Source: Gammaproteobacteria bacterium (lineage in GTDB: Bacteria; Pseudomonadota; Gammaproteobacteria; HTCC5015). From it: a stretch of DNA of 64,000 nt. The notes below the pieces were generated by a model. The model was not told where the DNA came from. It ran no database searches and saw only the letters and a list, made by a program, of their open reading frames with translations. A program made the translations under genes and the position numbers. Positions 9,260 through 28,505 of this stretch are shown here, one piece after another (positions within the stretch are counted from its first letter, which is position 1; each line of letters opens with the position of its first letter). The DNA lies in assembly GCA_013817245.1 (NCBI GenBank), contig JACDDA010000004.1:62001-126000 (forward strand), written 5' to 3'.

Positions 9260-9504
9260 TTTTGGTTTGGTGATTCTACGTCAATTTCACCTTATAAGCT
9301 TAGGTTTAAGGGCATTGGTTAAAAATTCAAGGTGCCATATATATAGAGTGATTGAAAAGGCGGATTGATAATTGGCCATGGGGCGGCTTTGCTTTATTAT
9401 GGCGGCTGGTTTTTCCTGTTGCTCAGTTCCCCGACGTCGTTCGCATTTAGCGCGGCACTTCGGCTATTGATAGTCTCCGAATTTGTTCTTTGAAGGTTGT
9501 TTTC

Positions 9505-12500
9505 ATGCTGTCTGCCGCGCGTGTGTTGTTGTTCTATCCTGGTTCTAGTGCTTTATCATCTTTTCGCCACGCTAAATTACTGGCTGTTGCCCGGCAACAG
9601 GTGCCAGATTTGGCGGTATTGGAAAGCCATTATGTGCATTTGGTAGATAGTGCACCTTTAGACGTTGAGCAAACGCAGCGTTTAGCGACCTTGCTGCAAT
9701 ATGGTGAATTTCCTGCGCAACAAATTACCCAGCCCAACTTGATCGTGATTCCACGCATCGGCACGATTTCGCCGTGGGCATCGAAAGCGACCGATATTGC
9801 GCATAACGCAGGTTTAACGTTGGTACGGCGCATTGAACGCGCACAAGTATATTCATTGCAGTGCACGGATGCGCGCGACTTAACCACGAGTGAGTTCGCA
9901 GCATTAGCCGCTTTATTGCATGACCGTATGACTGAATCAGTATTAACTGATTTAGCGCAAGCGCACGTTTTGTTTGAAGAACAAACGCCGCGCGCTTTAC
10001 AACGCATCGCCTTATTAAAAGAAGGGCGGGCGGCCTTAGTGATCGCGAATCAACGTTTAGGTTTAGCGTTGTCGGATGATGAAGTCGATTATCTTGTCGA
10101 AAAATTTACCGCCATGCAACGCGATCCTAGCGATGCAGAATTAATGATGTTCGCTCAAGCCAATTCGGAACATTGCCGACACAAAATTTTTAATGCTGAC
10201 TGGGTCATTGATGGCGCGCCGCAGAAAAAATCATTATTCAAAATGATTAAGCATACGTATGAAACACATCCTGCGGGTGTGATTACTGCGTATTCAGATA
10301 ATGCATCTATTATTGAAGGCGCTGTTGCGCAGCGTTTAAGTTTAAATGTTGATAGTGGTGAGTATCATCACATTACTGAAGCTGTGCATATTTTAATGAA
10401 AGTCGAAACGCATAATCATCCTACTGCTATTTCACCTTTCGCGGGTGCTGCGACGGGTTCGGGTGGAGAGATACGTGATGAAGGTGCAACCGGTCGTGGT
10501 TCGCGTGCGAAAGCGGGCTTGTGTGGATTTTCTGTTTCAAATTTAAAAATCCCGGGTTTTGAACAACCGTGGGAAAAAGATTTTGGTAAACCGGATCGTA
10601 TTGCATCAGCGTTAGAGATTATGTTGCAAGGCCCGATTGGTGCCGCGGCTTTTAATAATGAATTTGGTCGGCCTAATATTGTTGGTTACTTCCGTACCTA
10701 TGAAGAAGCTGTAAATGATAACGGCAGCACTTCACTGCGTGGTTATCATAAACCCATCATGATCGCCGGCGGCATGGGTAATGTGCGTCCGATGTTAACT
10801 AAAAAAGCGACATTGCCTGCGCGCACCGCAATCGTTGTGTTGGGTGGGCCCGCAATGTTAATTGGTTTAGGCGGTGGCGCTGCATCATCTGTTGCATCGG
10901 GTAGTAGTGCAGAGGCGTTAGATTTTGCGTCCGTGCAGCGCGGCAATCCTGAAATGCAGCGTCGTTGCCAAGAAGTGATTGATCGTTGCACTGCGTGCGG
11001 TGATGAAAATCCTATTTTGTCGATACACGATGTAGGTGCAGGTGGTTTATCGAATGCGTTGCCAGAAATTATTAATGATGCCGAGCGCGGTGGTCATTTT
11101 GATTTACGCAAAATTCCCTGTGATGAACGCGGCATGTCACCCATGGAAATTTGGTGTAATGAATCACAAGAGCGTTATATGTTGGCTATTTCACCGGAAC
11201 GATTAACGCGCTTTGTTGAGTTTTGTGAACGAGAGCGCTGTCCTTATGCGGTGTTAGGTTACACGCAAATCGAAAAAGATTTAATCGTTGAAGATAGCTT
11301 GTTAAACGATACGCCCGTGCATATGCCCTTAGATGTATTGTTAGGCAAGCCACCTAAAATGGTACGACACGGCCAACATGCGAATAAATCATTACAGCGT
11401 TTTGATACTGCATCTATAGAGCTGCGTGACGCAGTTCGCCGCGTATTGCGCATGCCCAGTGTTGCTAGCAAAAACTTTTTAATTACGATTGGTGATCGCA
11501 GCGTCGGCGGTTTAGTGTGTCGCGATCAAATGGTCGGGCCGTGGCAAGTGCCTGTTTCGAATGTGGGTGTGACTACTACTACTTATGAATCTTATACCGG
11601 CGAAGCAATGGCGATGGGTGAACGTGCACCGTTGGCGTTAGTGTTAGCGCCTGCATCGGGTCGCATGGCAGTAGGTGAAGCGATTACGAATATATTGGCA
11701 GCGGATGTAAATGATTTAAGTGATATTAAATTATCTGCGAATTGGATGGCCGCTTGCGGCGATCCCGTAGAAGATGCGGCGTTATTTGATACCGTGCGTG
11801 CAGTGGGTGAGGAGTTATGTCCTGCTTTAGGCATTTGTATTCCAGTGGGTAAAGATTCTTTATCAATGCGCACTGCGTGGCAACAAGCAAGTACATCGCA
11901 AGTGATGACGGCACCCTTGTCTTTAGTAGTGTCTGCTTTTGCGCCGGTAACCGATGTACGTCGTACTTTAACGCCGATGTTGCGCACTGATATTGGCCAA
12001 ACTGATTTAGTGTTATTAGATTTAGGTAAAGGCAGACAGCGTATGGGCGGTTCTGCTTTAGCGCAAAGCGTAAATCAAATTGGCCATGAAGCACCGGATT
12101 TAGACGATACCCATTTATTTAAATTGTTTTTTAAAACCATGACGCAACTAAAGCGCGAAGGTTTAATTAAAGCCTATCACGATCGTTCCGATGGTGGCTT
12201 GTTAGTCACACTGTGTGAAATGGCATTTGCTGCGCATTGTGGCATGACTATTAATCTAGATAGTTTAGGCAATGATCCAATTGCGGCTTTATTTAACGAA
12301 GAATTAGGCGTGGTGATTCAAGTGCGGCGCAGTGATCGCGCGAAAGTGCAGGCGATCTTAGCTAAATCTGGATTAGTGTCGATTGCGCATTTTTTAGGTT
12401 GGCATTCCGGCACTGATCAAATTCTAATTCGCCAAGCCGATGCGAATTTATTAATCGAGCATCGCAGCTATTTACAAAAGCTATGGACAGAAACCAGTTA

Positions 12501-13404
12501 TCACTTGCAAAAATTACGCGATAACCCGCAGTGCGCGGAAGAAGAATTTAACGCCTTGCGTGATATTAACGATCCAGGCTTACATGCAACATTAAGTTTT
12601 GATCCGAAAGAAAATATAGTCGCGCCGTATATCAATAGCAAAACCAAACCAAAAATTGCTATTTTTCGCGAGCAGGGCGTCAATGGGCAGTGGGAAATGG
12701 CGGCTGCATTTGAACGTGCGGGTTTTATGCCTATTGATGTGCATGTTAGTGATTTACTGGCGCAACGCATCAATTTAAATGATTTTAAAGGTTTAGCTGC
12801 CTGTGGCGGTTTTTCTTATGGCGATGTATTAGGTGCGGGTGGTGGTTGGGCGAAAACCATTTTATTTAATTCACAGTTAGCAGATGCATTCAGTGAATTT
12901 TTTAAGCGCACCGATACGTTTGGTTTAGGTGTGTGTAATGGTTGCCAAATGATGTCGCAATTAAAAGACTTGGTGCCCGGCGCGCAACATTGGCCACAAT
13001 TTTTACGTAATCGCTCTGAGCAATTTGAAGCACGTTTATCTATGGTTGAAATTATGCCTTCGCGTTCTATTTTATTACAAGGCATGGCAAGTACACGCGC
13101 ACCTATTATAGTGTCGCATGGTGAAGGTCGTGCGGTATTTGCGAATAACGGATTGGCATCATCTGATATCGTCATGCGTTATGTAAATAATTACGGCGCG
13201 GCGACGGAGCAATATCCTTTTAATCCGAATGGTTCTCCTCAAGGCGCAACGGCGTTTACTAATGATGATGGTCGCTTCACTATTATGATGCCGCATCCTG
13301 AGCGAATATTCCGGAGCGTGCAAGCATCGTGGGCACCGCGTGAATGGGGCGAAGAAAGTCCATGGTTACGCTTATTTCAAAATGCACGTTCATGGATTGC
13401 GTAA
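9505..13404 (+). CDS. purL: Phosphoribosylformylglycinamidine synthase, large one-chain form
   Basis: The 1299-residue enzyme converts FGAR, glutamine and ATP to FGAM in de novo purine synthesis. The length matches the single-chain PurL of gammaproteobacteria. It has an N-terminal PurS-like domain (to about 150), a linker and two AIRS-type ATP-binding halves ([18 protein letters not shown] near 215; [20 protein letters not shown] near 300). The C-terminal glutaminase domain has Cys1144 in GVCNGCQMM and the His/Glu pair in MPHPERIF. The ATG at 9505 is chosen because GAAGG lies nine bases upstream; a TTG at 9490 would overlap that site. It is monocistronic, divergent from ssrA and convergent with ettA. 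Confidence 0.98.
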
Positions 13405-13422
13405 AAAATTATTAATATTACA

Positions 13423-13450
13423 AAAAAAGGGAGCATAAGCTCCCTTTTTT
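13423..13450. terminator. Bidirectional terminator between purL and ettA
   Basis: A 12-bp stem (13423-13434 with 13439-13450) with an ATAA loop has A and T runs on both sides, so it can serve both convergent genes. Confidence 0.9.
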
Positions 13451-13471
13451 ATTTAAAACATTTATTTTTTG

Positions 13472-15142
13472 TTACGCGAGACGACGATATTTGATACGTT
13501 GTGGTTGATTGCCAGTATCGCCTTTGCGACGTTTATAGTCTTCTAAGTAATCCGCATAATTACCTTCAAACCAAGTGACTTCGCTGTTACCTTCAAAAGC
13601 TAAAATATGTGTGGCGATACGATCTAAAAACCATCGATCATGCGAAGTAACAATCGCGCAGCCGGGAAAATCTAATAACGCTTCTTCAAGTGCACGCAAG
13701 GTTTCAACATCTAAATCATTAGTCGGTTCGTCGAGCATTAAGACATTGCCGCCGCTGCGCAGTAGTTTAGCTAAATGCACACGATTACGTTCACCGCCCG
13801 ATAAATCACCTACACGTTTTTGTTGATCGGCACCTTTGAAGTTAAAGCGTCCAACATAGGCACGTGAGGGGGTTTCATAACGACCGACTTGAATAATATC
13901 TTGGCCATCACCAATTTCTTCCCACACGGTTTTATCGTTATTGAGTGAGTCGCGGCTTTGATCGACATACGCAAGTTCAACGGTTTCGCCAATCGTGATC
14001 GTGCCGCTATCCGCTTGTTCTTGTCCGCTAATTAAACGGAACAGGGTAGTTTTACCCGCGCCGTTAGGACCGATTACACCGATAATGCCACCGGGCGGTA
14101 AACGGAAATTTAAATTTTCGTACAGCATTTTATCGCCGTAACTTTTGGTAACATTTTCAAACTCAATTACTTTGTCGCCTAAACGTGGACCGGGTGGAAT
14201 ATACAAATCTTTAGTTTCACTGCGTTTTTGATATTCTTGCGAAGATAACTCTTCAAAGCGACTTAAACGCGCTTTGCTTTTTGCATGCCGGCCTTTCGGA
14301 TTACTGCGTACCCATTGCAATTCAGTTTCCATGGCTTTGCGACGTGCGGATGCTTGTTTTTCTTCAGTCGCTAAACGATTGCCTTTTTGCTCTAGCCATG
14401 AAGAATAATTACCTTCCCATGGAATGCCTTGACCGCGATCTAATTCTAAAATCCAACCAGCGACATTATCTAAGAAATAACGATCATGTGTAACCGCCAC
14501 TACAGTGCCTGCGTATTCTTGTAAATACCGTTCTAACCACGCGACTGATTCTGCATCTAAATGGTTAGTTGGTTCATCAAGAATTAACATTTCGGGTGCC
14601 GATAATAATAAACGACATAAGGCCACGCGCCGACGTTCACCACCTGATAAATGTTCAACGCTGGCTTCCCAAGGTGGTAAGCGCAATGCATCAGCCGCGA
14701 TTTCTAATTTGCGATCAATATCCCAACCGCCAACAGCTTCTATTTTATCTTGCAAATCGGCTTGATCGGCAAGCAGTTGATTCATTTCATCATCGCTCAT
14801 GGGCTCAGCAAATTTCATACTGAGTTCATTAAATTGTTGTACTAATGCTTGGATACTAGCGACGGCTTCTTCAACATTGCCGCGCACGTTTTTAGTGTTG
14901 TCGAGTATGGGTTCTTGAGGCAAATAACCAATCTGCGTGCCGGGATGTGGACGTGCCTCGCCTAAGTGTTCTTTATCTATACCCGCCATGATGCGCAGCA
15001 AAGTTGATTTACCAGAACCGTTGTAACCGAGCAGGCCGATTTTCGCACCGGGGAAAAAATTTAAAGAAATGTTTTTTAAAATTTCTTTATTGGGTGGGAC
15101 AACTTTGCCCACGCCGGACATGGTGTAAATATACTGCGCCAT
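13472..15142 (-). CDS. ettA: ABC-F protein EttA, energy-dependent translational throttle
   Basis: The 556-residue protein starts [20 protein letters not shown], the standard EttA N-terminus. Length and start match the E. coli protein (555). It has two ABC domains without membrane segments: Walker [12 protein letters not shown] (about 39-49) and [11 protein letters not shown], signatures [15 protein letters not shown] and [15 protein letters not shown], and DEPTNHLD / DEPTNDLD Walker B ends. Between them lies the arm/linker region. EttA binds the ribosomal E site and gates elongation according to ATP/ADP ratio. An upstream in-frame ATG at 15205 would add 21 residues without family support. The gene is monocistronic. 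Confidence 0.96.
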
Positions 15143-15330
15143 ATGAACAATCACGTTTGAATAAGAATGGGCGCACATTATCAAGAATTTATGCGGTCTT
15201 TCCAAGGGAGAATGAGCGATTAAACGTCAACTAATTGGCGATTTGAGGCGTAAGGCAAGCAGATTACCCATTTATTCGCGGCATTGTTCTTGCAATAGCA
15301 GCTCTATTAAATTTTGTTATGGAGCACTAC

Positions 15331-17124
15331 ATGTCTGCCATTCTTCAGCAAATTTCTGTTGAACCTATTACTGCGTCTAAACCGCTAGAAATAGGCGATT
15401 TATTAGTCGCTTATCTTGAACAGCTTGGCGTTGAATACGTCTTTGGGATTCCCGGCGGCGCGATCGAGCCTTTATATAATGCGTTGGCGCGTAGTGCGCG
15501 CCGAGGCAGTGTCCGCGCCATTGTCGCGCGGCACGAAACCGGCGGCGCTTTTATGGCGCATGGTTATGCTCAAAACACGGGGCGTTTAGGTGTTTGTTGT
15601 GGAACTTCGGGGCCGGGCGCGACCAATTTAATCACGGGCGTTTCTTCAGCGTATGAAAGCCGCGTGCCTATGTTAGTCATTACTGCACAAACAGCGATTA
15701 CACATTTTGGCAGAGATGCTTTTCAAGAATCATCGTGTACCGGTGTAAACGTGTTGGGCATGTTTGAATATTGCACGGCGTATAACACGTTGATTTCACA
15801 TGTAGAACAATTTGAACATAAATTATGCGCTGCGATTATTACTGCTTTTCGTGAAAGTCGTCCGGTGCATATTAGTATTCCGGTTGATATTTTTAGAGCA
15901 CCCGCAAACATCAAAAATCCTTCTTATAATTTAGAAAATTTTATGCAACAAGACAATCTGTTGGATCAAGTGGCTGTCGATAAATTAAAAATAATATTAG
16001 CCGAAGCAAAAAAACCAGTTTTCCTAATTGGCGAAAGTGCAGCAGAAGGAATTGGTCATATTGCAGAATTAGCGTCACGTTTGAATGCGCCGATGATTTC
16101 TACACCTTTGGGTAAAGGTTTGGTCAATGCTTATCATTCATTATATAGAGGTATATTTGGAGTATCCGGCCATCAAGAAGCTAGCGATTTGCTCGATAAC
16201 CCCGATGTTGATGTAATCATTGCTATCGGTACTACACTCGGCGAATCCGCTAGTAATAGTTGGGATCCGCAATTATTACGCAATAAAAAATTAATTCATG
16301 TTGATGCACGATGGTCGCATTTTATGCATACGCCCATGGCAAGTTTGCATGTGCATGGAAGATTGTCAACCATACTTACACAGTTGCTAGAAGATTATCC
16401 TGTGAATAGTTGTTCGACATCGACTCTTACTGAAAATGACAACTTATCTTTCAGTTTGATAGAGCTTTATAAGTGCTATGAAGAAAATAAACTTTTAAAT
16501 CCACAACGACTAATGTACGAATTGCCTAAAAAAATTCCTGTGCACACTCTCTATTTAGCGGACACAGGAAATAGTGTTTATTGGGCAGCGCATTATTTGC
16601 ATCCTATTGATAGACGTATGAGTGGAGCACGTTCAATTAAAGGTGGAAATTTTCAAACAGGTATGGAATTTGGTTCTATGGGGTGGGCGATTGGTGCTGC
16701 GATTGGTGCTGCTTTAGGTAATAACGATATTCCAGTAGTGGCACTAGTCGGCGATGGTAGCTGGTTAATGAGCGGACAAGAGTTAACGGTTGCAGTACAA
16801 GAATCATTAAATATTATTTTTATAGTATTAAACGATGGGGCCTTAGGTACGATAAAACATGGGCAGCGTTTAGCGGGTGCAGAACAGTACGCTTATGAAA
16901 TTAGTTTTGTTGATTTTGCGAAAATGGCTGAAGCGATGGGGGCGCGAGGCATAACGATTAATACTACAGAAGATTGGATCGCATTAGATTTCGCAAATTT
17001 ATTACAAGAATCAGGTCCTTTAGTCATTGATGCACGCATTGATGGTGAGCAGGTTCCACCGATTAGTTCTCGTATGAAAGCGTTGGGCACAGTAAAGGCA
17101 GGGTATCATGACATTAATGAATAA
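15331..17124 (+). CDS. Thiamine-diphosphate-dependent enzyme, acetolactate-synthase-like
   Basis: The protein has about 597 residues and three domains of the ALS/benzoylformate-decarboxylase family. The N-terminal PYR domain has the cofactor-activating Glu69 in RHETGGAFMAHGYA. The middle domain covers about 200-330. The C-terminal PP domain has GDGS at about 474 and LNDGALG completing the ThDP/Mg motif. GGAG lies seven bases before the ATG at 15331; an ATG at 15319 is possible. No small regulatory subunit (ilvH/ilvN) is nearby. The partner genes instead are two citrate-synthase-fold proteins, and the next start lies inside this gene's last codons. Branched-chain synthesis is therefore unlikely. 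The reaction is unknown: it may decarboxylate or carboligate a 2-oxo acid handled by the partners. Confidence 0.88.
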   Translation: MSAILQQISVEPITASKPLEIGDLLVAYLEQLGVEYVFGIPGGAIEPLYNALARSARRGSVRAIVARHETGGAFMAHGYAQNTGRLGVCCGTSGPGATNLITGVSSAYESRVPMLVITAQTAITHFGRDAFQESSCTGVNVLGMFEYCTAYNTLISHVEQFEHKLCAAIITAFRESRPVHISIPVDIFRAPANIKNPSYNLENFMQQDNLLDQVAVDKLKIILAEAKKPVFLIGESAAEGIGHIAELASRLNAPMISTPLGKGLVNAYHSLYRGIFGVSGHQEASDLLDNPDVDVIIAIGTTLGESASNSWDPQLLRNKKLIHVDARWSHFMHTPMASLHVHGRLSTILTQLLEDYPVNSCSTSTLTENDNLSFSLIELYKCYEENKLLNPQRLMYELPKKIPVHTLYLADTGNSVYWAAHYLHPIDRRMSGARSIKGGNFQTGMEFGSMGWAIGAAIGAALGNNDIPVVALVGDGSWLMSGQELTVAVQESLNIIFIVLNDGALGTIKHGQRLAGAEQYAYEISFVDFAKMAEAMGARGITINTTEDWIALDFANLLQESGPLVIDARIDGEQVPPISSRMKALGTVKAGYHDINE

Positions 17125-17920
17125 CGCTATTCATGGGGACATGATAAGCACAAAAATATGGCAAGAAGAAACTACTGCAGAATCTCCCTTTGTTGCACAA
17201 CGCAGTTTATGTGCAGGTTACGATGTTTATAATCAAGTATTAGGCAACGCGAGTTGGGCGGAATTTTTATATTTATTATTTAAACAAGCACGACCCACAG
17301 CAAAACAAGCAACCATGCTCAATGATTTAGCGGTGGGTTTAGCGAATGCAGGTCCGCGCGATTTTGCAGTGCGCAGTGCTATTAATGCGTCTATTGCTGG
17401 TGGTACAGCAGCATCTGCATTGATGGCGGCATTAGCAACGGGTGCGGGTAGTTTGAATGGCGGGCATGCGGTGGTGTTGATGAGTCAATTGATTAAACAA
17501 TGCGGTAGTGATCTTGCTGCTTGGCAATTGGCATTTTCCACCGCGCAGTTTTATCAGAATAAAGATTGGCCTGCTGCACCGCAGCCACCGGGATTTGATG
17601 CGATGTCAACATCCACATCAGAACCTGTTTTAAAAATGTTAACGCATTTTTCAGCATTAGATGAAACCGCTTATTGTGCGTGGTGGCGAGAAAATATTGC
17701 TACCTTAGAGTCTTATGCGGGTTGGCCCTTAGGCATGCACGGTGTTGCCGCTATTGTATTGTCTGCTTTAGATTTTACTGCGCGGCAAGCGGAATATTTA
17801 TGGTTATTAATGCGTTTGCCCGGTGCCGCTGCGCATGCAGAAGAGCAATATATGCAATGGGGACAAACACAAGTATTCACCGATTGCATTGAATTTAAGA
17901 GACCATTAATCAATGCATAA
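17108..17920 (+). CDS. Citrate-synthase-fold protein A, catalytic residues replaced
   Basis: The 270-residue protein resembles the short citrate-synthase/citryl-CoA-lyase superfamily. GLANAGPRDFAVRSAINASI lies at about 77-96, then GAGSLNGGHAVVLM where citrate synthase has G-x-x-H-G-G-A-N, so the catalytic His is Asn117. The C-terminal block WPLGMHGVAAIVLSALDF has His where the usual NVDG Asp stands. PGAAAHAEEQ closes the fold as in family members. It overlaps the ThDP gene by 17 bases (or eight with the ATG at 17117) and overlaps protein B by eight bases, so the three are translationally coupled. I infer a non-catalytic or altered-chemistry subunit, perhaps a heteromer with protein B. Confidence 0.7.
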   Translation: MTLMNNAIHGDMISTKIWQEETTAESPFVAQRSLCAGYDVYNQVLGNASWAEFLYLLFKQARPTAKQATMLNDLAVGLANAGPRDFAVRSAINASIAGGTAASALMAALATGAGSLNGGHAVVLMSQLIKQCGSDLAAWQLAFSTAQFYQNKDWPAAPQPPGFDAMSTSTSEPVLKMLTHFSALDETAYCAWWRENIATLESYAGWPLGMHGVAAIVLSALDFTARQAEYLWLLMRLPGAAAHAEEQYMQWGQTQVFTDCIEFKRPLINA

Positions 17921-18740
17921 ACAACATAATCCAGTATTGGGCAAAGAGTTTCAGTTGAGTTTGCAAAAAGCCGCTGTACGTTGGCATACCCGTATGGGCT
18001 TGCTTTATCCAGGTGAAGAAGTGTGGTTACGCGATAAAAAATTATTAACTGATTTTCCGGAAAAAAATTGGTTTGCCATTTTGTTGTATGCCATCACAGG
18101 AAAAGATTTTACCGCCGCGCAATTACATATAATGGAAGCTATCTGGTCGATTTGTTTATGTTTTCCAGATCCGCGCATTTGGTGTAATCGAGTTGCCGCA
18201 CTGGGTGGCACCGCAGGCACCACCGGCAGTTTGGCGATTGCGGCGGCGTTAGCAGTTTCCGAGTCAGAAATATACGGTCAAAAACCGGTGCGTCGTGCCG
18301 TACAGAGTTTATTAGATATAGAAAATGAATTAGGTAGTAAAAAATTGCCGGATATATTAGAGGAATGGAAAATAAAAAATAAATTAATTTATGGGTTTGG
18401 CAGACCAGTAGCATTAAGAGATGAGCGTGTGGTTACATTATTTTATTTATTAAAATATCATAATCTTCATGAAGAAAAATTTATCTGCTTAGCGTTTGAT
18501 ATTGAAATAATATTGCAACAGCGCAATCAACGCTTATTTTTAAATGCAGGCGGTATAATGGGAGCGATCGCCTGTGATTTTGGTCTCACTGCTCAGGAAT
18601 TTTATTTGTTTACTTGCAGCGCGTATTCAGCGGGCATTACAGCTTGTTATTTAGATGCTTATCAGCAACCAGCTGGGCATTTTTTTCCTATGCCCGTGGG
18701 TGCTGTGAAGTACGCCGGACCAGAACATAGGGCCTGGTAA
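17913..18740 (+). CDS. Citrate-synthase-fold protein B, catalytic residues replaced
   Basis: The 275-residue protein is a second citrate-synthase-superfamily member. PDPRIWCNRVAALGGTAGTT lies at about 89-108, then SLAIAAALAVSESEIYG. YGFGRPVALRDERV corresponds to the GFGH-x-V-Y...DPR motif but with Arg in place of His. LNAGGIMGAIACDFGLTAQE corresponds to the NVDG...LG(L/I) block but with Gly in place of Asp. The C-terminus (FFPMPVGAVKYAGPEHRAW) is unlike canonical enzymes. Both proteins of the pair therefore lack the His/His/Asp catalytic set at the aligned positions, judged by eye. The start ATG lies inside the end of gene A. No terminator is seen before the TonB receptor gene 71 bases downstream. 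Confidence 0.68.
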   Translation: MHKQHNPVLGKEFQLSLQKAAVRWHTRMGLLYPGEEVWLRDKKLLTDFPEKNWFAILLYAITGKDFTAAQLHIMEAIWSICLCFPDPRIWCNRVAALGGTAGTTGSLAIAAALAVSESEIYGQKPVRRAVQSLLDIENELGSKKLPDILEEWKIKNKLIYGFGRPVALRDERVVTLFYLLKYHNLHEEKFICLAFDIEIILQQRNQRLFLNAGGIMGAIACDFGLTAQEFYLFTCSAYSAGITACYLDAYQQPAGHFFPMPVGAVKYAGPEHRAW

Positions 18741-18811
18741 TACGAAGCTACGTAAAGAAACTCTAAAGTCTACGGCTAGGAAGCCGTTATGAAGGGTAAG
18801 CAAGCATAAGG

Positions 18812-20956
18812 ATGATTGCAAGCATGGATGCGTACTGCAAAAAACAGAGTTCTATCCTCTGCCAACTGTGCATGGGTTTTATGGTTGCGCTCTTCAGTCA
18901 TGCCGCTGTTTCGGCCGAAGCATTTTTAGGCGCAGATGATGAGTTATTCGTTAGTATTGCGACTGGGCAAAGCAAATCTATCAAATTAGCACCGGCGGTA
19001 ACCACGGTTGTGACTGCAGCGGAAATTACTGCCATGGGCGCAACGACATTGTCCGAGGTTCTAGAGTCAGTCCCAGGTTTACATGTATCAGCCAATGCCA
19101 TTGGCTACGGCAAGCTTTATCTTACACGCGGCATTTATTCAGAATATAACCCACAATTTTTAGTGCTAATTGATGGTCAGCCCGTTACTGGTTTACAGTT
19201 TGGTAATCGAGGTTTCTATTTAGGCGAGTATTCTATTTATGGTATTGAGCGCGTAGAAATTTTACGTGGACCTGCATCTGCTGTATACGGCGCAGATGCT
19301 TTTTCTGGCATCGTTAATATCATTACAAAAAACGTTGAAGATATTGATAAAACTGAACTAGGCGTAGCGTTCGGTAGTTTTGAATCTAAAGAGGCATGGA
19401 TTTTAGCTGCTCACGAATGGCAAGGATTAAAATTCGCTTACAGCTTAACGGCTTCATCATCAGATGGCAGTGATCAAATTATCGAAAGTGATGCGCAAAG
19501 CAATTTTGATTCATTATATGGAACACAAGTCTCCTATGCGCCGGGCAGTGTTAATGCGGCTTCTGAAAAAATAGCCGGACATTTAAAAATTAATTACAAT
19601 GATTGGAATGCGCGTCTCGATTATCAAGTAAATCAGAATGTAGGTATGGGCGCTGGCGTCGCTTCTGCATTAGATCCGCTTGGCAAAGGTGATGCCGAGC
19701 GATATTTAGCTGAATTATCTTATGGCACAAATGTTTCAGATGTTTTGAAAGTTTCGTCATTTTTAAATTATCTCAATCTTCAATCAAATAGCTTCTTTTA
19801 TTTATTTCCTGCGGGCGTAAATTTTAATAGCCCAATCCCTCCGCTGAATGGCGATTATTTTCCAGAAGGTGTTTTTGGTGAATTAGTTTTGCGCGAGCAT
19901 CATATGCGTTTTGAGAGTTCTGCTTTTTATAGTGGTTTTGAGAATCAAAATTGGCGCGTAGGCGCCGGTTATTTGTTTCAAGATATGTATCATGTAGAAG
20001 AGCGTAAGAATTTTTATATCCAGCCTAATGGCATTCCCGGGAATTTGGGGAGCGTTGTTGATTATAGCGATAACAATGCATTTTTGCCGGAAACAGATCG
20101 TCGTGTTCAATATACGTTTTTGCAAAATGAGTGGCAGCTATATCCAGATTGGGAGCTGACCGCGGGTGTGCGTTATGATCGGTATTCTGATTTTGGTGAT
20201 ACAACTAATCCGCGTCTTGCTTTGGTTTGGCAAGCGGCTTATGACTTAACGTTTAAGGTTTTATACAGCGAAGCCTTTAGACCGCCTTCTTTTTCGGAAC
20301 AATTTAATATTAATAATCCGGTAGCGTTAGGTAATCCTAATTTAAAACCAGAAGAAATTAATACGATTGAATTAGTGGTCGATTACAGCAGCAGTGATGT
20401 GTTGCGTCATACGTTTAATATATTCCAATATAAAGCCAACGATCTTATTCAATTTATTCCAGATGCAGCCCCTGCAACATCTAAAACCGCACAGAATATC
20501 GGCGAGCAAAGTGGTTATGGCGTTGAATATGAATGGAACTGGCGTATAGACGATGTTACCAAAATAAAAGGTAATATTGCGTGGCAACATTCGGTGCAAG
20601 GGGTTAACGATGATGCAACTATTCATTCGCCGGCTTTGCAAGCGTATTTGCAGGCCAATAGAAATTGGCTAGTGAATTTTGATAGCGGCATGACATTAAA
20701 ATATGTTGCTGATCGAGAACGCGTCAGTTATGACGCGCGCGCACCTATTGATGATTATGTAACAGTCGACGGCTATGTGGCGTATTCATTTCTCAATTGC
20801 CATAAATCTAGATTGACATTACATGTAAAAAATATTTTTGATGAAGACATAAAAGAGCCTTCGGTTGGATCTGTGCCGCCGGTACCCACATCCATTCCTG
20901 ATGATTTGCCTATGAGTGGAAGAAGCTTTTTATTAACACTAAAAACTTATTGGTAA
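18812..20956 (+). CDS. TonB-dependent outer-membrane receptor 1
   Basis: The protein has up to 714 residues. A signal peptide (hydrophobic core LCMGFMVALFSHAAVSAEA) is followed by a TonB-box-like region. The plug domain at about 58-170 includes MGATTLSEVLESVPGLHVSA, VEILRGPASAVYGADAFSGI and VNIITK. A 22-strand barrel ends in SFLLTLKTYW with a C-terminal aromatic. There is no N-terminal signalling extension. The start may be the ATG at 18812 or the one at 18824, as spacing to AAGG favours neither clearly. It is a paralogue of the next gene, sharing FLGADDELFVSIATGQSKSI / LFGEDDKSFVEIASGQRQSI. The ligand is unknown. The adjacent ThDP/citrate-synthase-like genes are on the same strand, so a link to a small carboxylate or siderophore is possible but speculative. 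Confidence 0.92.
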   Translation: MIASMDAYCKKQSSILCQLCMGFMVALFSHAAVSAEAFLGADDELFVSIATGQSKSIKLAPAVTTVVTAAEITAMGATTLSEVLESVPGLHVSANAIGYGKLYLTRGIYSEYNPQFLVLIDGQPVTGLQFGNRGFYLGEYSIYGIERVEILRGPASAVYGADAFSGIVNIITKNVEDIDKTELGVAFGSFESKEAWILAAHEWQGLKFAYSLTASSSDGSDQIIESDAQSNFDSLYGTQVSYAPGSVNAASEKIAGHLKINYNDWNARLDYQVNQNVGMGAGVASALDPLGKGDAERYLAELSYGTNVSDVLKVSSFLNYLNLQSNSFFYLFPAGVNFNSPIPPLNGDYFPEGVFGELVLREHHMRFESSAFYSGFENQNWRVGAGYLFQDMYHVEERKNFYIQPNGIPGNLGSVVDYSDNNAFLPETDRRVQYTFLQNEWQLYPDWELTAGVRYDRYSDFGDTTNPRLALVWQAAYDLTFKVLYSEAFRPPSFSEQFNINNPVALGNPNLKPEEINTIELVVDYSSSDVLRHTFNIFQYKANDLIQFIPDAAPATSKTAQNIGEQSGYGVEYEWNWRIDDVTKIKGNIAWQHSVQGVNDDATIHSPALQAYLQANRNWLVNFDSGMTLKYVADRERVSYDARAPIDDYVTVDGYVAYSFLNCHKSRLTLHVKNIFDEDIKEPSVGSVPPVPTSIPDDLPMSGRSFLLTLKTYW

Positions 20957-20966
20957 TTAAATACTT

Positions 20967-23042
20967 ATGATAATTAAAAATATTTTGGCCATTCTAATTT
21001 TATTAGCATCTACTTCTGTATGCGCTGAGGATATGTTGCTATTCGGCGAAGATGATAAATCTTTTGTGGAAATCGCCAGTGGTCAACGCCAAAGTATCGC
21101 ACGTGCACCGGCTATTGCTTCACTCATTACTGCTGATGATATTCGTCGCATGGGTGCTACGACTTTAGAAGAGGCGCTGGAATCTGTGCCGGGTTTGCAT
21201 GTATCAGCGAATACGTTTTCTTATACTTCTGCATTTTATATTCGTGGTCTAGCTACTTCTAGTAACTCGCAAGTATTGGTGTTGGTTGACGGCGTGCCTA
21301 TGACGCAACTATATGGCGGCAATCGTGGTTTTACGTGGAATAGCTTTCCTGCACAATTAATCGCACGTGTTGAAATTATTCGTGGCCCGGCCTCGGCGGT
21401 ATATGGCGCAGAAGCATTGGCCGGTGTGATTAATGTGGTAACTCACGCTTCCCAAGGCACTAATGAAAGTGTGGGCGTACGTGCGGGATCTTATGACACC
21501 TATGCGGTATGGGTTAATGATTATTATAAAATTTCTGATTGGTCATTCGGGGTTAGTGCTTCATTTGGACAAACTGATGGCGCCACACCGCTTATTAAAA
21601 GCGATGCGCAATCATCACTAGACCGCCTTTTTTTTACTTCTGCTTCTTTGGCGCCAGGTCCCGCGCAGCTTGAAGGTAAAGGTCGTGATCTTTATTTGCA
21701 CGTTAATAACCAAAGCGTCGAATTAGATATCGGATACATGGCGAGAAATGATTTAGGCACCGGCGGTGGCCTTATTGCAGTTATAGATACGGAAGGTAAA
21801 CAAGATGGTGAGCGGATATTTTTGAATGGGACTTACCATATTCCAAGCGTCGGTGATTGGCGAGCTGACTTATCATTTAATTATATGAATAGCCAAACCG
21901 TAGCGGATTTGCGATTGTTGCCGCCAGGCATAGATTACACCTTCGCCGGTGGTGATTATTTTCCAGAAGGTGCTTTTGAAGATTTACGTATAAAAGAAAA
22001 CCATTTCCGTATTGAACCTCGAATTTATTATGATGGATTTGATGCGCATAAACTGTGGTTAGCGCTGGGTTATTATAAAGGTGATATGTATGAAATTAGA
22101 GAAGCGCGAAATTTCATAGTAAATCAAAATGGTTTTCTTGTTTTGTTGCCTGGTTTAGTTGATGTATCGACTTTTCTTCCAACGTTACCTGAGCAATCTA
22201 AAACCGTAAAATATATAAGCGTGCAAGATCAGTGGCAAATGGCGGCTGATTGGGAGCTTACGACGGGTGTGAGAATAGATGAATATTCCGATTTTGGTAC
22301 AGAGGTTAATCCTCGATTAGCGATTGTGTGGCAAAGCACCTATAACATAACTACTAAGATTCTGTATGGCCATGCCTTTAGATCACCATCTTATGAAGAA
22401 CAATTTGTTCAAACAAGTCCACTTGCACAAGGTAATGATGACCTTCAGCCCGAAACTATAGATACGCTAGAGTTAGGTGTTGATTACGCTATAACAGATG
22501 ATGTGCATATTACAGCAAATGTATTTATGTATGAGTTAAGCGATATGATCCGTTCAATCCAAGATCCTAATGAACCAAATCGTGCCCCCATTGAAAATGT
22601 AAACACTGTGCGCGCGCATGGCTATGAAGCGGAGTTAGCGTGGCATATTTCGCCTTCTTGGAATTTAAACGGTAACTACGCGTATCAAGAAACTGAAATA
22701 CAAGAAACGGGTGACACATTAGAAGCTGCTCCTCGTCATAAAGTGTATGGCTTGTTGAGTTTTGATGGGATAGCAGGATTTAGCAGCAGTCTTAAATCGT
22801 TGTATGTTGCAGACAGACGACGGTTAAGTATTGATAGTCGTGATGAAGTTAAAAATTACAGTCGGTTTGATTGGATAGTTAATTACGAAAATGCCGCTCG
22901 CAAACACAATGTTCAGTTGGTAATAAAAAATTTATTAGACAAAGAATATAATGAAGCCACGTATTATGGGCGGCTTTATCTCCAAGATGACTTGCCGATG
23001 CCTGGTAGATCGCTATCTACCCAGTACGAGTATCGGTGGTGA
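20967..23042 (+). CDS. TonB-dependent outer-membrane receptor 2
   Basis: The 691-residue protein has a signal peptide (NILAILILLASTSVCAED). The plug domain at about 40-150 includes MGATTLEEALESVPGLHVSA, LVLVDGVPM, VEIIRGPASAVYGAEALAGV and INVVT. The barrel ends GRSLSTQYEYRW. It lies ten bases after receptor 1 and shares its early mature sequence and plug, so the pair arose by tandem duplication followed by divergence, mainly in the barrel loops. Both lie directly before a periplasmic binding protein gene and a hybrid kinase. That arrangement recurs in aquatic proteobacteria and suggests uptake coupled to sensing. No iron-box-like sequence was recognised upstream. Confidence 0.93.
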   Translation: MIIKNILAILILLASTSVCAEDMLLFGEDDKSFVEIASGQRQSIARAPAIASLITADDIRRMGATTLEEALESVPGLHVSANTFSYTSAFYIRGLATSSNSQVLVLVDGVPMTQLYGGNRGFTWNSFPAQLIARVEIIRGPASAVYGAEALAGVINVVTHASQGTNESVGVRAGSYDTYAVWVNDYYKISDWSFGVSASFGQTDGATPLIKSDAQSSLDRLFFTSASLAPGPAQLEGKGRDLYLHVNNQSVELDIGYMARNDLGTGGGLIAVIDTEGKQDGERIFLNGTYHIPSVGDWRADLSFNYMNSQTVADLRLLPPGIDYTFAGGDYFPEGAFEDLRIKENHFRIEPRIYYDGFDAHKLWLALGYYKGDMYEIREARNFIVNQNGFLVLLPGLVDVSTFLPTLPEQSKTVKYISVQDQWQMAADWELTTGVRIDEYSDFGTEVNPRLAIVWQSTYNITTKILYGHAFRSPSYEEQFVQTSPLAQGNDDLQPETIDTLELGVDYAITDDVHITANVFMYELSDMIRSIQDPNEPNRAPIENVNTVRAHGYEAELAWHISPSWNLNGNYAYQETEIQETGDTLEAAPRHKVYGLLSFDGIAGFSSSLKSLYVADRRRLSIDSRDEVKNYSRFDWIVNYENAARKHNVQLVIKNLLDKEYNEATYYGRLYLQDDLPMPGRSLSTQYEYRW

Positions 23043-23044
23043 TT

Positions 23045-24001
23045 ATGAAAACGATAAACTTATTTAAAGTGGCAATTAAATTGGATAATGTCATGCGAAA
23101 TTTTCTTTTGGCTTGCGTGGTCTTTTTAATATGCGGAGTGACTACGAGTTATGCTGCGGAACGTACCGCAATTATTTTCCCTGATGTGCGTGAGCCATAC
23201 CGTACTATTTTTAGAGACATTGTAACGGGTGTAAAAAATTCGTCAGCAGTGACGCCTTTAATTTACAGCTTTGATGAAAATTGGCGCGCAGAAGAATTAC
23301 GCGCATGGGTTAGCACTAATCAGATCACCAATCTGGTGGTATTAGGTAATCAAGCATTAAATTTGGCGCATGCTGGAAATTTAACAGATGTACGTATTAC
23401 TGCCGGCGCTATTACTAACTGGCCTAATCATGTCGCAGTGAATGGTGTTGCTTATTTGCCGGCGCCGAGCGCCTTATTCAAAGAGTTGACTCGTTATGCC
23501 AACACTGTCCGGCGTGTTCATGTGATCTATGAATCTTCGGTGAATGCATGGCAAGTTGAGATCGCCCAGCGTGAAATAGAACGATTAGGTTTTAGCTTGC
23601 AAGTCTATAAAGTTGCAAGCCTTCAAGAGGCAGCAAAAACATATAGCAATTTATTGTCTGGCATCAATCCAAAAACGGATGCGATATGGCTGCCATTAGA
23701 TGATCAGTCATTAGATTCACGCGTTATTTTACCGATGATTCTTAAAGAATCATGGAATCGTGCGATTGTGGTGTTTTCAAGTAATCCCGCACATGTATCA
23801 CGCGGTGTGTTGTTCTCTTTGTATCCTGATAGTCGTTATTTAGGACAACAATTAGTCCCGCTAAGCCAAGCAACTACTGCTTCAGTATTGCCTGCGGATA
23901 AACTGAAAAAGGCCTTTAATATACGTACAGCGGAACATCTAAATATAAATATTACGGATGCAGAACTAAAGAAAATTGATATTTTATTTCCTGCTCGCTA
24001 G
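23045..24001 (+). CDS. ABC-type substrate-binding protein (ABC_sub_bind type)
   Basis: The protein has about 318 residues and a predicted signal peptide (MRNFLLACVVFLICGVTTSYAAE). It has the two-lobe layout of the ABC_sub_bind (YtlA/tryptophan-type binding protein) family: AIIFPDVREPYRTIFRDIV, ITNLVVLGNQALN and VRRVHVIYESSVNAWQVEIA. The DAIWLPLDDQSLDSRVI stretch and GVLFSLYPDSRYLGQQLVPL follow. No permease or ATPase gene is nearby, so it may act as a periplasmic ligand sensor for the kinase encoded 13 bases downstream. The start could be the ATG at 23045 or at 23093, the latter beginning directly with the signal peptide. The gene overlaps or abuts the end of receptor 2. Confidence 0.85.
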   Translation: MKTINLFKVAIKLDNVMRNFLLACVVFLICGVTTSYAAERTAIIFPDVREPYRTIFRDIVTGVKNSSAVTPLIYSFDENWRAEELRAWVSTNQITNLVVLGNQALNLAHAGNLTDVRITAGAITNWPNHVAVNGVAYLPAPSALFKELTRYANTVRRVHVIYESSVNAWQVEIAQREIERLGFSLQVYKVASLQEAAKTYSNLLSGINPKTDAIWLPLDDQSLDSRVILPMILKESWNRAIVVFSSNPAHVSRGVLFSLYPDSRYLGQQLVPLSQATTASVLPADKLKKAFNIRTAEHLNINITDAELKKIDILFPAR

Positions 24002-24014
24002 GTAATTTTGCATT

Positions 24015-27000
24015 ATGATGCAGACTATTAAAAATATAAAAAAAATAAATCGCTTTCATTATGGCTTTATGCAGCAATTGGGCATCGTATTCGCGATTGG
24101 TATACTTTTACTGGCTATTTGTTCTTCTATCGCGGTATCAACATTAACCTCAAAAATTGTTTCCAATCGGCTTGTTGACGAAGGTGCTCAGCTAACCAAA
24201 GTATTAGCCGATCAAAGTCCTTTGGCTTTGCTATATGGCAGCGCAGAAAATATTGAAGAAACCTTGAAAACCGTCATGCGGTCACCTGATGTCGTGGGCA
24301 TAAGAATTATAGATAAAGAAGGCGATGTCTTAGTTTCGATGGGCGAATGGGAATTTTTAGATACCGATATTAATAAAGTTAAAGAAATTCATTTAATAAG
24401 TGAGACAGATGAAATTTGGGAATATGCGGCTCCTGTTTATGTGCATGACAATAGCACGTCTGATTCTGGTTTTTTATTAAATCAAGCTCCAGTGGTTTCC
24501 GCGCAACGCATTGGTAGTGTGCGTTTGGCGCTCAGCAAAAAAACTTTGCACGCTATGACGTCGTCTATTTATAAAACTAATACTGCCGTTACGGCTGGTT
24601 TGGCTATTTTGTTATTATTAGTAATTTTATTAGTAACCAAAAGGATTACTAATCCATTAAGAAATTTAGGTAATATAATGCTGCGTGCCCAGAATGGAGA
24701 AACGCATCTACGTGCTAATACGCCAGGCCCCATTGAAATTTATATTATGCAACAATCATTTAATAAAATGATGGATGTATTAGAAGCACGAGAAAGTGAA
24801 TTAGTAAAAGCACGAGATATTGCATTAGAGTCGGCAAAAGCAAAAGGTGAGTTTGCTGCGAATGTCACGCATGAGCTGCGCACACCCATGAATGGAATTT
24901 TGGGTATGTTAGAGCTGTTAGCCGGCACGGGTTTAAATTTCAAACAAACTGAATATATAGAAACGGCTCAAAATTCTGCTCAAGCACTATTGTTATTGGT
25001 TAACGATATTCTGGATTTTTCAAAAATAGAAGCGGGTGCAGGGCAACTGAATCCAGAAGACTTTTATTTATATACTTTATTGGATGATGTAGTCGATTTG
25101 TTGTCGCATCAAGCAAACAAGAAAAATATTAGTTTAGGGTACGTAATTGATCCGTCAGTGCCTGCGGCGGTGCATGCAGATCAAAATAGAATGAGACAAA
25201 TCGTTATTAATTTAATTGGTAATGCTATTAAGTTCACTGCAAAAGGCGGTGTAAAAATTAGAGTTTCTGTGATCAAAGATGCTGCTAATGACACTGAGAT
25301 GCTAGAAATAGCCATCAAAGATACAGGCATAGGTATTCCTCACGAAGCGCAACAACGTATTTTTGAAGCTTTTCAACAAGCCGATGGCTCTACTTCTCGT
25401 CAATATGGCGGCACGGGATTGGGTTTGGCTATTTGTGCCAAGTTAATTAATTTTATGGAAGGCACTATTGCAGTAGAAAGTCATATAGGAGAAGGCAGCT
25501 GCTTTTCATTTAAAATTCCATTAAAGCGCGTCTTGCTTCCTCCTATACGTAAAAGAAGCGGAGTTAGTTCTATAGCTGGCGAGCATGTTGTGGTGTTTGC
25601 ACAAGATACGGCGATGGCTGAAGAAGTAATGCATTTGTTAGATAGCTGGCAAGTTATGTCTGCACATGTTAACAGCCTTGAGGCCTACCAATTATTGTTG
25701 CGTGAAAGTAACAATAAGGTTGTATTAGTCGCACATGATGAAGTTGATTACGTAAAAAATCTCATTGCTCTATTAAGAGAAGAATACCCTTTATCTAAAT
25801 TATCAATTATTTGGTTGTTACACGGTTCAGTCAGCAAGCTTAATATGCCGGCCGACAAAATTTCTGCGTTAATAGAATTGCCTGCCCAAGGAACACGTTT
25901 ATATGATGCGATTGCGGCGGTAACCGGAAAAATAAAAACTCATTCAGGCACGGAAAAATCCACAGAGCCTTCGATCCCACGAGGTCGTCAAGTATTAGTA
26001 GTGGATGATAATCGCACTAATCAGCAAGTTGCTTTTGGTATGTTGGAACGTATGGGTTGCATTGTTGATTTGGCATCTGGCGGTAAAGAAGCATTAGATG
26101 TTGTATTTACTAAATCGTATGACTTGGTAATGATGGACGTGCAAATGCCTGGCATGGACGGTTACGAAGTTACTGATCAAATTCGTCGCTTAGAAGAAGG
26201 CACTAATCAACATATTCCGATTATTGCGATGACGGCAAATAATAGTGATGATGATGTGCGCCATTGCTTAGCAGTCGGGATGGATGATTTTCTTTCAAAA
26301 CCTTTAAAAATGGCTTTCCTAAAAGAAAAACTAGCCATTTGGCTGAATACTGAATCGAATCACGCCATGGAAAACTATTTGCCGGCAGCAAATGAACAAG
26401 ATAAACATTTAGCCGCCGTTACGAGTTTACATTTGATCAATGAAGAAACCTTGGCTGAGTTAAAGAAAAATGCCGGCAATGTGTTTATGGAAATGATTGA
26501 AGTTTATTTAGAAGACAGCGAACTTTATATCGAGTCTATAAAGCGTGCATTAGAAGAAAAAGATGAGAAATTATTAAGACGCTCGGCGCATTCATTAAAA
26601 GGCAGTAGTCGTAATTTTGGTGCTGAGCGATTAGGTGAAGTTTGCCGTATTTTAGAAGAATGTGGGGAACAAGCGGATATTGATAAAGCGCGTACTTATG
26701 TTAATACCTTGATTGATGCGTTGGGTGAAGTGAGTGCTTTATTGCAAGCTCAATTAAATGCCATAAAAAACAAACAAGCAGGTCCGGTTAAAAATAGCAA
26801 AACCAGTTCCAAAATATTAGTAGTTGATGATGATCGCAGTCAACGTATGACGTTGCGCGCGGTGCTAGAAAATGATGGTTACACAGTAGAAGAAGCTAAT
26901 ACTGGCGGACACGTAGTGACGATGTGCGCGAAATCTATGCCGGATTTATTATTGATGGATGCAATGATGCCAGGCATTGATGGTTATACTGCATGTCGTC

Positions 27001-28505
27001 GTATTCGTGAAATGCCGGGTGGTGCTCATGTGCCGGTGTTAATCGTAACGGCGCTGGATGATGAAGCTTCTATTGATAAAGCTTTTTCTGCTGGCGCTAA
27101 TGATTTTATTCCGAAGCCAGTCAATTTTGCTGTTATGCGCCAACGTATTTCACGTTTATTAGAAGCTAGCAAAACTGAGCAACACGTACGTCATTTGGCT
27201 TACCATGATCCTTTGACGGGTTTGGCTAATAGAACTACGTTCATTGAAACGTTAAATGATTACTGCGTCAAAGCGCGTGGTAATGGCGAGATGGTAGCGG
27301 TTTTATTTTTAGATTTAGATAGATTTAAAATGGTTAATGACACGATGGGTCATGACGCCGGCGATTTATTATTAAAAGCAGTTACGCAACGCATACAAGG
27401 TGTTGTCCGAACTACTGATTTAGTTGCGCGTTTAGGTGGTGATGAATTTACCGTGATTTTAGGTGGTTTGAAAGAAATGGAAGTGATTGGGCGTATTGCG
27501 CAAAAAATATGCGAGTCGCTAGCGAAACCGTTTAATTTGTTAGAGCAAGAAGTTTATATTAGCAGCAGTATTGGCATCGCTATTTGTCCTAATGATAGCG
27601 ACGATATTAATGTCATTATTAAATATGCCGATACGGCAATGTTTAAAGCCAAAGAAAACCGTAATACCTTTTGTTTTTATGAAGCAGGAATGGATACTAT
27701 CATTGCAAAACGTATGGCCATGGAAGGTGCGATGCGGCGGGCTTTAGAGAGCGATCAGTTTTTATTGTATTATCAGCCGCAAGTTGCATTAAATACTTTA
27801 CAAGTGACCGGTATGGAAGCATTAATTAGATGGCAACATCCTGAAAAAGGCATGGTTTCGCCGGCTGATTTTATTCCAATTGCAGAAGAAACAGGATTAA
27901 TTGGTGCTTTAGGTTATTGGGTGTTGCGTGCAGGTTGTCAGCAGTTACGACGTTGGCTGGATAGTGGTTATAAACCTATTAAGTTATCGATTAACGTCTC
28001 TAGTCGTCAATTAGAAGATGTTAAGTTTTTAGAAAATGTATCAGTTATTTTACAAGAAACTCAGGTGCCTACACATTTGTTAGAGTTCGAAATTACCGAA
28101 AGTGCCATCATGAAAAATCCTGACGAAATGATTGAAGTGCTGCGAAAATTTCGGGAAATGGGTATAGAAATAGCGATTGATGATTTTGGTACAGGCCATT
28201 CTTCGTTAAGCTATTTAAAACGTTTGCCGGTTAACACTTTAAAAATTGATCGTTCTTTTGTTAATGATATTGATTCTAGTGATGATGCTGTTTTAGTCAC
28301 GGGCATTATTGCTTTAGCGAAAAGTTTACGTTTAAAAATAGTCGCTGAAGGTGTGGAAACACAATCGCAGCAAGATTTTCTAGCTGCCTGTGACTGTGAT
28401 ACGGTGCAGGGCTTTTATTTGTATAAGCCAATGCCCGCTGCGGATTTTGAAAAGAGAATATTTTTAGCAGATCTTGAATCCGTTAAAGTAATTCATTCTG
28501 GATAG
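24015..28505 (+). CDS. Hybrid histidine kinase with receivers, HPt, GGDEF and EAL domains
   Basis: The 1496-residue protein is built as follows. TM1 spans about 20-42, a periplasmic sensor about 43-185, TM2 about 190-212 and HAMP about 213-262. HisKA has His286 in THELRTPMNG. The HATPase domain follows (N box NLIGNAIKF; DTGIGIP; GGTGLGL). A degenerate receiver lies at about 515-620 and lacks the acceptor Asp. Receiver 2 has Asp708 in MMDVQMPGMDG, HPt has His859 in RSAHSLKGSS, and receiver 3 has Asp982. The GGDEF motif is intact at 1141, with an RxxD inhibitory site (RTTD) five residues before it. The EAL motif is intact at 1268. It should link periplasmic signals to phosphorelay and cyclic-di-GMP synthesis or breakdown. 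It is co-oriented with the binding protein and TonB receptors, and the likely input is the binding protein. Confidence 0.93.
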   Translation: MMQTIKNIKKINRFHYGFMQQLGIVFAIGILLLAICSSIAVSTLTSKIVSNRLVDEGAQLTKVLADQSPLALLYGSAENIEETLKTVMRSPDVVGIRIIDKEGDVLVSMGEWEFLDTDINKVKEIHLISETDEIWEYAAPVYVHDNSTSDSGFLLNQAPVVSAQRIGSVRLALSKKTLHAMTSSIYKTNTAVTAGLAILLLLVILLVTKRITNPLRNLGNIMLRAQNGETHLRANTPGPIEIYIMQQSFNKMMDVLEARESELVKARDIALESAKAKGEFAANVTHELRTPMNGILGMLELLAGTGLNFKQTEYIETAQNSAQALLLLVNDILDFSKIEAGAGQLNPEDFYLYTLLDDVVDLLSHQANKKNISLGYVIDPSVPAAVHADQNRMRQIVINLIGNAIKFTAKGGVKIRVSVIKDAANDTEMLEIAIKDTGIGIPHEAQQRIFEAFQQADGSTSRQYGGTGLGLAICAKLINFMEGTIAVESHIGEGSCFSFKIPLKRVLLPPIRKRSGVSSIAGEHVVVFAQDTAMAEEVMHLLDSWQVMSAHVNSLEAYQLLLRESNNKVVLVAHDEVDYVKNLIALLREEYPLSKLSIIWLLHGSVSKLNMPADKISALIELPAQGTRLYDAIAAVTGKIKTHSGTEKSTEPSIPRGRQVLVVDDNRTNQQVAFGMLERMGCIVDLASGGKEALDVVFTKSYDLVMMDVQMPGMDGYEVTDQIRRLEEGTNQHIPIIAMTANNSDDDVRHCLAVGMDDFLSKPLKMAFLKEKLAIWLNTESNHAMENYLPAANEQDKHLAAVTSLHLINEETLAELKKNAGNVFMEMIEVYLEDSELYIESIKRALEEKDEKLLRRSAHSLKGSSRNFGAERLGEVCRILEECGEQADIDKARTYVNTLIDALGEVSALLQAQLNAIKNKQAGPVKNSKTSSKILVVDDDRSQRMTLRAVLENDGYTVEEANTGGHVVTMCAKSMPDLLLMDAMMPGIDGYTACRRIREMPGGAHVPVLIVTALDDEASIDKAFSAGANDFIPKPVNFAVMRQRISRLLEASKTEQHVRHLAYHDPLTGLANRTTFIETLNDYCVKARGNGEMVAVLFLDLDRFKMVNDTMGHDAGDLLLKAVTQRIQGVVRTTDLVARLGGDEFTVILGGLKEMEVIGRIAQKICESLAKPFNLLEQEVYISSSIGIAICPNDSDDINVIIKYADTAMFKAKENRNTFCFYEAGMDTIIAKRMAMEGAMRRALESDQFLLYYQPQVALNTLQVTGMEALIRWQHPEKGMVSPADFIPIAEETGLIGALGYWVLRAGCQQLRRWLDSGYKPIKLSINVSSRQLEDVKFLENVSVILQETQVPTHLLEFEITESAIMKNPDEMIEVLRKFREMGIEIAIDDFGTGHSSLSYLKRLPVNTLKIDRSFVNDIDSSDDAVLVTGIIALAKSLRLKIVAEGVETQSQQDFLAACDCDTVQGFYLYKPMPAADFEKRIFLADLESVKVIHSG

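Follow-up and report, generated by a model that had tools for sequence, protein, structure and literature searches.

What do a thiamine diphosphate (ThDP)-dependent enzyme and two citrate-synthase-like proteins without catalytic residues do together, and how much of the surrounding DNA belongs with them? The question arises from a 64,000-nucleotide stretch of a gammaproteobacterial genome (GenBank assembly GCA_013817245.1, contig JACDDA010000004.1, positions 62,001 to 126,000), hereafter the window. On its + strand, positions 15319-18740 carry a trio of genes encoding the ThDP enzyme (601 amino acids, aa), protein A (270 aa) and protein B (275 aa). A preliminary description, made from the sequence, had noted that the three genes overlap, which is the case (17 bases between the ThDP enzyme and A, 8 bases between A and B), and had treated the trio as the full unit. 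That interval proved too small. Four further genes follow on the same strand, with intergenic gaps across all seven of -17, -8, 71, 10, -7 and 13 bases. We therefore read 15319-28505 as one 13.2-kb operon, of which the trio would form the opening genes:

15319..17124, + strand: ThDP-dependent enzyme of the acetolactate synthase superfamily, with BbmA and CsmA as nearest solved relatives (Pfam TPP_enzyme N/M/C, PDB matches and family alignment)
17108..17920, + strand: A, a citryl-CoA lyase (CCL)-fold protein lacking the catalytic His/His/Asp triad (NCBIfam match, fold search and residue counts)
17913..18740, + strand: B, a CCL-fold protein lacking the triad, with GYGR for GYGH and the DER Arg retained (NCBIfam match, fold search and residue counts)
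18812..20956, + strand: TonB-dependent outer-membrane receptor 1 (Pfam plug and beta-barrel; conserved next gene in relatives)
20967..23042, + strand: TonB-dependent outer-membrane receptor 2, a tandem copy (Pfam plug and beta-barrel; operon maps)
23036..24001, + strand: periplasmic ABC_sub_bind/TrpX-like binding protein without a permease (PF04392 just under cut-off, NCBIfam TrpX at E 4e-8; co-occurs with B)
24015..28505, + strand: hybrid histidine kinase with the order membrane sensor-HAMP-HisKA-HATPase-REC-Hpt-REC-GGDEF-EAL (Pfam domains; N-terminal region co-occurs with B)

Open reading frames (ORFs) were called mechanically, and the ThDP enzyme gene has a second ATG at 15331, downstream of the start at 15319. 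A promoter and terminator scan gave no more matches than expected by chance and was of no use.

Conservation of the gene set

When 369 genomes sampled from the class were searched, 41 contained relatives of B (E < 1e-12); these were distributed over 26 families (counted by hand), and B also occurred in other classes of the phylum. The sampled members of the window's own family yielded no B, and the distribution is patchy. Using the B alignment as query, a profile scan of named genomes returned 132 relatives; a single protein A as query returned none from genome contigs. The best 80 of the 132 included sequences from Porticoccus, Cycloclasticus, Collimonas, Shewanella salipaludis, Exilibacterium, Methylococcaceae, Gallionella, Azonexus, Sedimenticola and many uncultured lines. 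No relatives of A were detected on plasmids and none of B on viral contigs.

Gene neighborhoods were compared in 46 testable loci, which were chosen by B alone from named genomes with at least 3 kb before and at least 9 kb after B. Many loci derive from metagenome assemblies, and some contigs end within the operon. The ThDP enzyme and A accompanied B in all 46 loci, and 43 of the 46 also contained the TonB receptor, the binding protein and the kinase, making up all six components. Because B was the only selection marker, the other five components constitute separate observations. Conservation thus extends well beyond close strains, as the intact trio in every testable locus, the 26 families and the occurrence in other classes attest. 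The association of the binding protein and the kinase sensor region with B also held across separate contigs. Among 228 genomes, the binding protein (E < 1e-20) and the N-terminal region of the kinase were each present in 22 of 26 B-positive genomes (Fisher p 2e-21 and 1e-19, respectively, values that take no account of kinship among genomes and presuppose that the 228 are a subset of the 369), and every genome positive for the binding protein was also positive for the kinase. A description of the gene set was not found in the open-licence papers searched, which is weak evidence of novelty; the same papers yielded nothing pertinent on the function of BbmA or CsmA either.

The preliminary description had overlooked these constant partners. 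Their association with the trio shifts the likely meaning of the locus from a new heteromeric enzyme to synthesis combined with sensing. The reading that we consider most likely, at about even confidence, is that a small molecule of the acyloin type is synthesized by the trio and perceived by the receptor encoded in the same operon, the output being a change in cyclic-di-GMP.

The ThDP enzyme and its two partners

All three TPP_enzyme Pfam domains (N, M and C) are present in the window ThDP enzyme, and the catalytic Glu (RHE, E69) and the GDG...ND motif, invariant in 22 aligned family sequences, are intact. The closest solved relatives are BbmA (306 bits), CsmA (227 bits) and Escherichia coli IlvB (203 bits). 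Acetohydroxyacid synthase, BbmA (8x3x) and CsmA (8x3z) share with it the ThDP-enzyme fold family, the Glu and the GDG motif, and BbmA and CsmA additionally have a GSSLG(E/D) stretch in common with it. Since the best generic NCBIfam matches are acetolactate synthases, the gene could in principle encode a divergent acetohydroxyacid synthase isozyme with unrelated neighbors, an explanation that we regard as highly improbable. Its score against TIGR00118 was 298 bits, below the acetolactate synthase cut-off of 538. At the GARFDDR site of IlvB, the window protein reads GTTLGES, BbmA GSSLGDW and CsmA GSSLGET, so that the acceptor region is unlike that of IlvB. Acetohydroxyacid synthases use an Arg in GARFDDR to bind their second 2-oxo acid; if so, the absence of this stretch implies that the ThDP enzyme would take a different acceptor. 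The operon encodes no regulatory small subunit, as the preliminary description had stated for the ThDP enzyme, and ilvN lies elsewhere in the genome, as do a further ilvB-type gene and a full-length gene for citrate synthase (gltA), so that the trio is not needed for central metabolism. Housekeeping branched-chain synthesis was ruled out on the basis of the separate ilvB-type gene and ilvN and the missing GARFDDR, and the strict conservation of the neighbors also speaks against a stray isozyme.

NCBIfam CCL models matched A (E 2e-11) and B (E 3e-8) weakly and under cut-off, and the Pfam Citrate_synt matches of both proteins were likewise under cut-off. In a fold search, the B model (predicted local distance difference test score, pLDDT, 81) superposed on CCL 6hxp with Z 22.0 and a root mean square deviation (rmsd) of 2.3 over 230 residues, and the A model (pLDDT 77, last 30 residues unreliable) with Z 16.9 and rmsd 3.3 over 206 residues, both models being monomers built from shallow alignments. 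The predicted structures therefore combine weak sequence likeness to CCL with what is clearly the CCL (citrate-synthase large-domain) fold. In fold and length, A and B resemble citryl-CoA lyase and the CCL module of ATP-citrate lyase (6hxp, 6hxo and 6hxl), from which they differ by loss of the His/His/Asp triad and by forming, together with the CCL rows, three separate tree groups.

Residues were mapped onto 6hxp for 105 A and 113 B sequences. The first triad position in the A family is mostly Leu, with His in 12 of 105; at the second His position (GYGH), His is absent (0 of 105) and replaced by Pro (88) or Ser (11), and at the Asp position there is no Asp (0 of 105), with Thr in 45 and Ser in 42. 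In the B family, the first position is mostly Ile, the second is Arg in 111 of 113 and His in 1, and Asp is again absent (0 of 113), with the DPR Arg retained in 112 of 113. These counts agree with the preliminary description that A and B lack the acid/base residues with which citrate synthase and CCL work, and the alignment to 6hxp, proposed as a check for a hidden His/His/Asp, restored the triad in neither family. Judged from the aligned sequences, the catalytic triad is lost in both. The individual substitutions reported earlier (SAHGG His to Asn and NVDG Asp to His in A; GYGH His to Arg and NVDG Asp to Gly in B) were all correct for the window; as features of the families, the Arg of B is nearly invariant, and the Asn and His of A are not the rule. 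The notion that A and B are complementary half-sites was ruled out, as the triad is gone from both families.

Loci L082-L084 were dropped as a canonical CCL reference because part of the triad is missing in them too; these three aligned members keep the GYGH-type His but not the complete triad. They belong to a further CCL-like family (L082-L084, L202, L203 and L205) near catabolic-type genes, and in L084 a flavin monooxygenase adjoins it.

A, B and the CCL rows each formed one group in a maximum-likelihood tree (supports 99/98, 100/100 and 97/93), and deep splits within A resemble those within B, which we read as the pattern of an ancient pair whose members diverged in step. Both window proteins have long branches, of 1.23 (A) and 1.32 (B) changes per column versus a median end branch of 0.51. 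A and B are always paired, each being one clade with its own invariant residues. In locus L017 (8276-10933; same genome as L144, from groundwater), a single uninterrupted reading frame of 886 aa encodes both the ThDP enzyme and A, and B is the gene that follows, a fusion that argues for physical association of the encoded parts. Together with the substrate Arg retained in B, this pairing and the fusion would also suit an A-B heteromer with a new joint active site that performs acyl-CoA or 2-oxo-acid chemistry with the ThDP enzyme, the neighbors serving only in regulation. We consider this conceivable, if rather unlikely, and compatible with synthesis and sensing. With the citrate-type triad lost in both proteins, such chemistry would need other residues, and the neighbors are as constant as the trio itself. 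For the enzyme part, either new chemistry or pseudo-enzyme subunits are possible.

Sensing genes and operon variants

At the family level, the TonB receptors of the window resemble heme, B12 and siderophore receptors. Two lie in tandem here (18812-23042, + strand), most relatives have one, and locus L064 (= L139) also has two. The binding protein has an N-terminal signal-like segment and resembles the amino-acid binder TrpX. The hybrid kinase (1496 aa) contains Pfam GGDEF and EAL domains, which would form its output, and no DNA-binding domain. Extra ORFs of at least 150 aa within operon spans encoded short-chain dehydrogenases/reductases (SDRs), methyltransferases, carbamoyltransferases or transposase-like proteins; no inner-membrane transporter or permease was seen among them.

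The receptor family and the presence of the gene set in iron oxidizers such as Gallionella invite comparison with siderophore-type uptake. The trio might then make an alpha-hydroxy-carboxylate or similar chelator that is recovered by way of the TonB receptor, with the binding protein and kinase acting as its sensors. Such a metallophore seems improbable to us: siderophore-type uptake shares the TonB receptor (Pfam), but no dedicated inner-membrane importer for a metal complex and no corresponding reductase was seen in the operon span, the binding protein is TrpX-like and the trio is kept in clades without a TonB receptor.

Several operon copies carry additional enzymes. A short-chain reductase lies inside the operon in Collimonas, Azonexus, Rhodocyclales and others, and an O-methyltransferase in L101 and L155. 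A carbamoyltransferase is part of the operon in L112 (12895-15635, which also has a reductase) and lies beside A-B in L088 (185-4634). All three are tailoring enzymes of the biosynthetic kind.

The sensory part, in turn, varies around the trio. In another class, L193-L196 contain the same six components in the order TonB-A-B-ThDP-binding protein-kinase. L066 and L068 have the trio without TonB receptor or binding protein, adjoining GAF/PAS hybrid kinases. In L197-L200, from another class, the trio is followed by a protein of ~1730 aa and then a response regulator (L197: 7629-17200), the large protein in L197 having a Ser/Thr kinase-AAA-GAF-HisKA_3 architecture. Chemotaxis genes adjoin some operon copies, with CheR found in 9 of the first 44 loci.

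These variants bear on the idea that the operon senses and uses an outside compound. On this view, a scarce environmental ligand would be picked up by the TonB receptor and binding protein, the kinase would adjust behavior and the trio would degrade or assimilate the ligand. TonB receptors often import external compounds, many hosts among the best 80 B relatives use hydrocarbons or C1 compounds, and citrate-synthase relatives and ThDP enzymes also serve in catabolism. We nevertheless judge it unlikely, given that the operon span lacks an inner-membrane importer, the kinase has a GGDEF-EAL output instead of a DNA-binding domain, the extra genes are of the biosynthetic tailoring type and the sensor type is swapped while the trio stays.

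Among unusual copies, L152 (4716-11826, from a Rhodocyclales metagenome-assembled genome) contains a ThDP enzyme-SDR-A-B-A-B-B array without a TonB receptor, in which the CCL-fold pair is expanded. Two copies appear decayed: L021 (genome G037) retains short A, B and ThDP fragments, and L067 (genome G138) has a lone B near transposase-like genes. Elsewhere in the window lie a gene for a protein with a RoxA-like cytochrome-c domain (PF21419; 37143-38906, + strand; E 5.5e-16) and, outside the operon, a further TonB-dependent receptor gene (54733-56844, - strand).

A candidate system for making and sensing a small molecule

The constant coupling of the trio to several kinds of sensor kinase, to tailoring genes, to a binding protein without importer and to cyclic-di-GMP domains is what suggests synthesis plus sensing. 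In the pathway that we propose, A and B would be subunits of CCL fold bound to the ThDP enzyme, where they would hold the substrate (acceptor or acyl) without performing citrate-type chemistry themselves. The ThDP enzyme would join a decarboxylated 2-oxo acid to a second substrate, giving an acyloin-type or alpha-hydroxy product that, in some lineages, may be tailored by the reductase, O-methyltransferase or carbamoyltransferase. This product would leave the cell, and the TonB receptor would return it to the periplasm. Binding to the TrpX-like periplasmic protein would then control the hybrid kinase, whose GGDEF-EAL output would change cyclic-di-GMP levels.

We counted in favor of this proposal the 43 six-component loci, the co-occurrence statistics, the reordered six genes in another class, the exchange of sensors, the ThDP-A fusion, the tailoring genes, the lack of a visible importer, the intact ThDP motifs, the acceptor region unlike IlvB, the GGDEF/EAL domains of the window kinase and the chemotaxis genes near some copies. 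Other observations weigh against it. In L211 (genome G134; 9408-15294, - strand), the ThDP enzyme, TonB receptor, binding protein and kinase are present with an S-adenosylmethionine (SAM)-dependent methyltransferase replacing A and B, some loci contain A and B without a ThDP enzyme gene nearby, and the operon includes no exporter. The TonB receptor is the odd piece, since it should be dispensable for a small acyloin, and the product may instead carry a charge, be bound to a metal or be larger. A compound from outside could equally be what the TonB receptor, binding protein and kinase together sense.

Known signaling systems offer partial parallels. In Vibrio, the autoinducer-2 receptor LuxP/LuxQ couples a binding protein in the periplasm to a hybrid histidine kinase in the membrane, and sensing requires no importer. 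The operon pairs the same two protein types, as known here from genes, but differs in its ABC_sub_bind/TrpX-type binder, its TonB receptor, the synthase in the same operon and the GGDEF-EAL domains in the kinase itself. CqsA/CqsS of Vibrio and LqsA/LqsS of Legionella mediate alpha-hydroxyketone signaling, with the gene for the synthase, a pyridoxal phosphate (PLP) enzyme, beside that of the sensor kinase. Here, too, synthase and kinase genes are adjacent, and alpha-hydroxyketones are also the product class expected of a ThDP carboligase, whereas a ThDP enzyme with two CCL-fold partners takes the place of the PLP synthase. By analogy, the architecture would work like LuxPQ-type sensing joined to a CqsA/CqsS-like synthase, and we claim membership in neither system. 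Features of an autoinducer system are seen in 43 of 46 loci, where enzyme genes are linked to a sensor histidine kinase and a periplasmic binding protein; in other clades, the linked kinases are of different types. More tentatively, and with somewhat less than even confidence, we suggest a new class of chemical signaling in several classes of Pseudomonadota, based on a lineage-specific, tailored acyloin-type signal that would be made by a ThDP synthase with its two triad-less CCL-like partners and perceived through TonB receptor, binding protein and a hybrid kinase setting cyclic-di-GMP.

If synthesis plus sensing is the right reading, a wide range of environmental bacteria, including Porticoccus, Cycloclasticus, Collimonas, Methylococcaceae, Gallionella and relatives, would have in common a private signal, a dedicated receptor for it and a cyclic-di-GMP output. 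The trio would then have a product that can be tested for, paired pseudo-citryl-CoA lyases would have an unusual role, and there would be a new ThDP-based route to small molecules, one that may escape genome-mining rules. Should the ligand prove to be no signal, the operon still represents a conserved six-component unit with an enzyme trio below the tested curated-family cut-offs and is worth solving.

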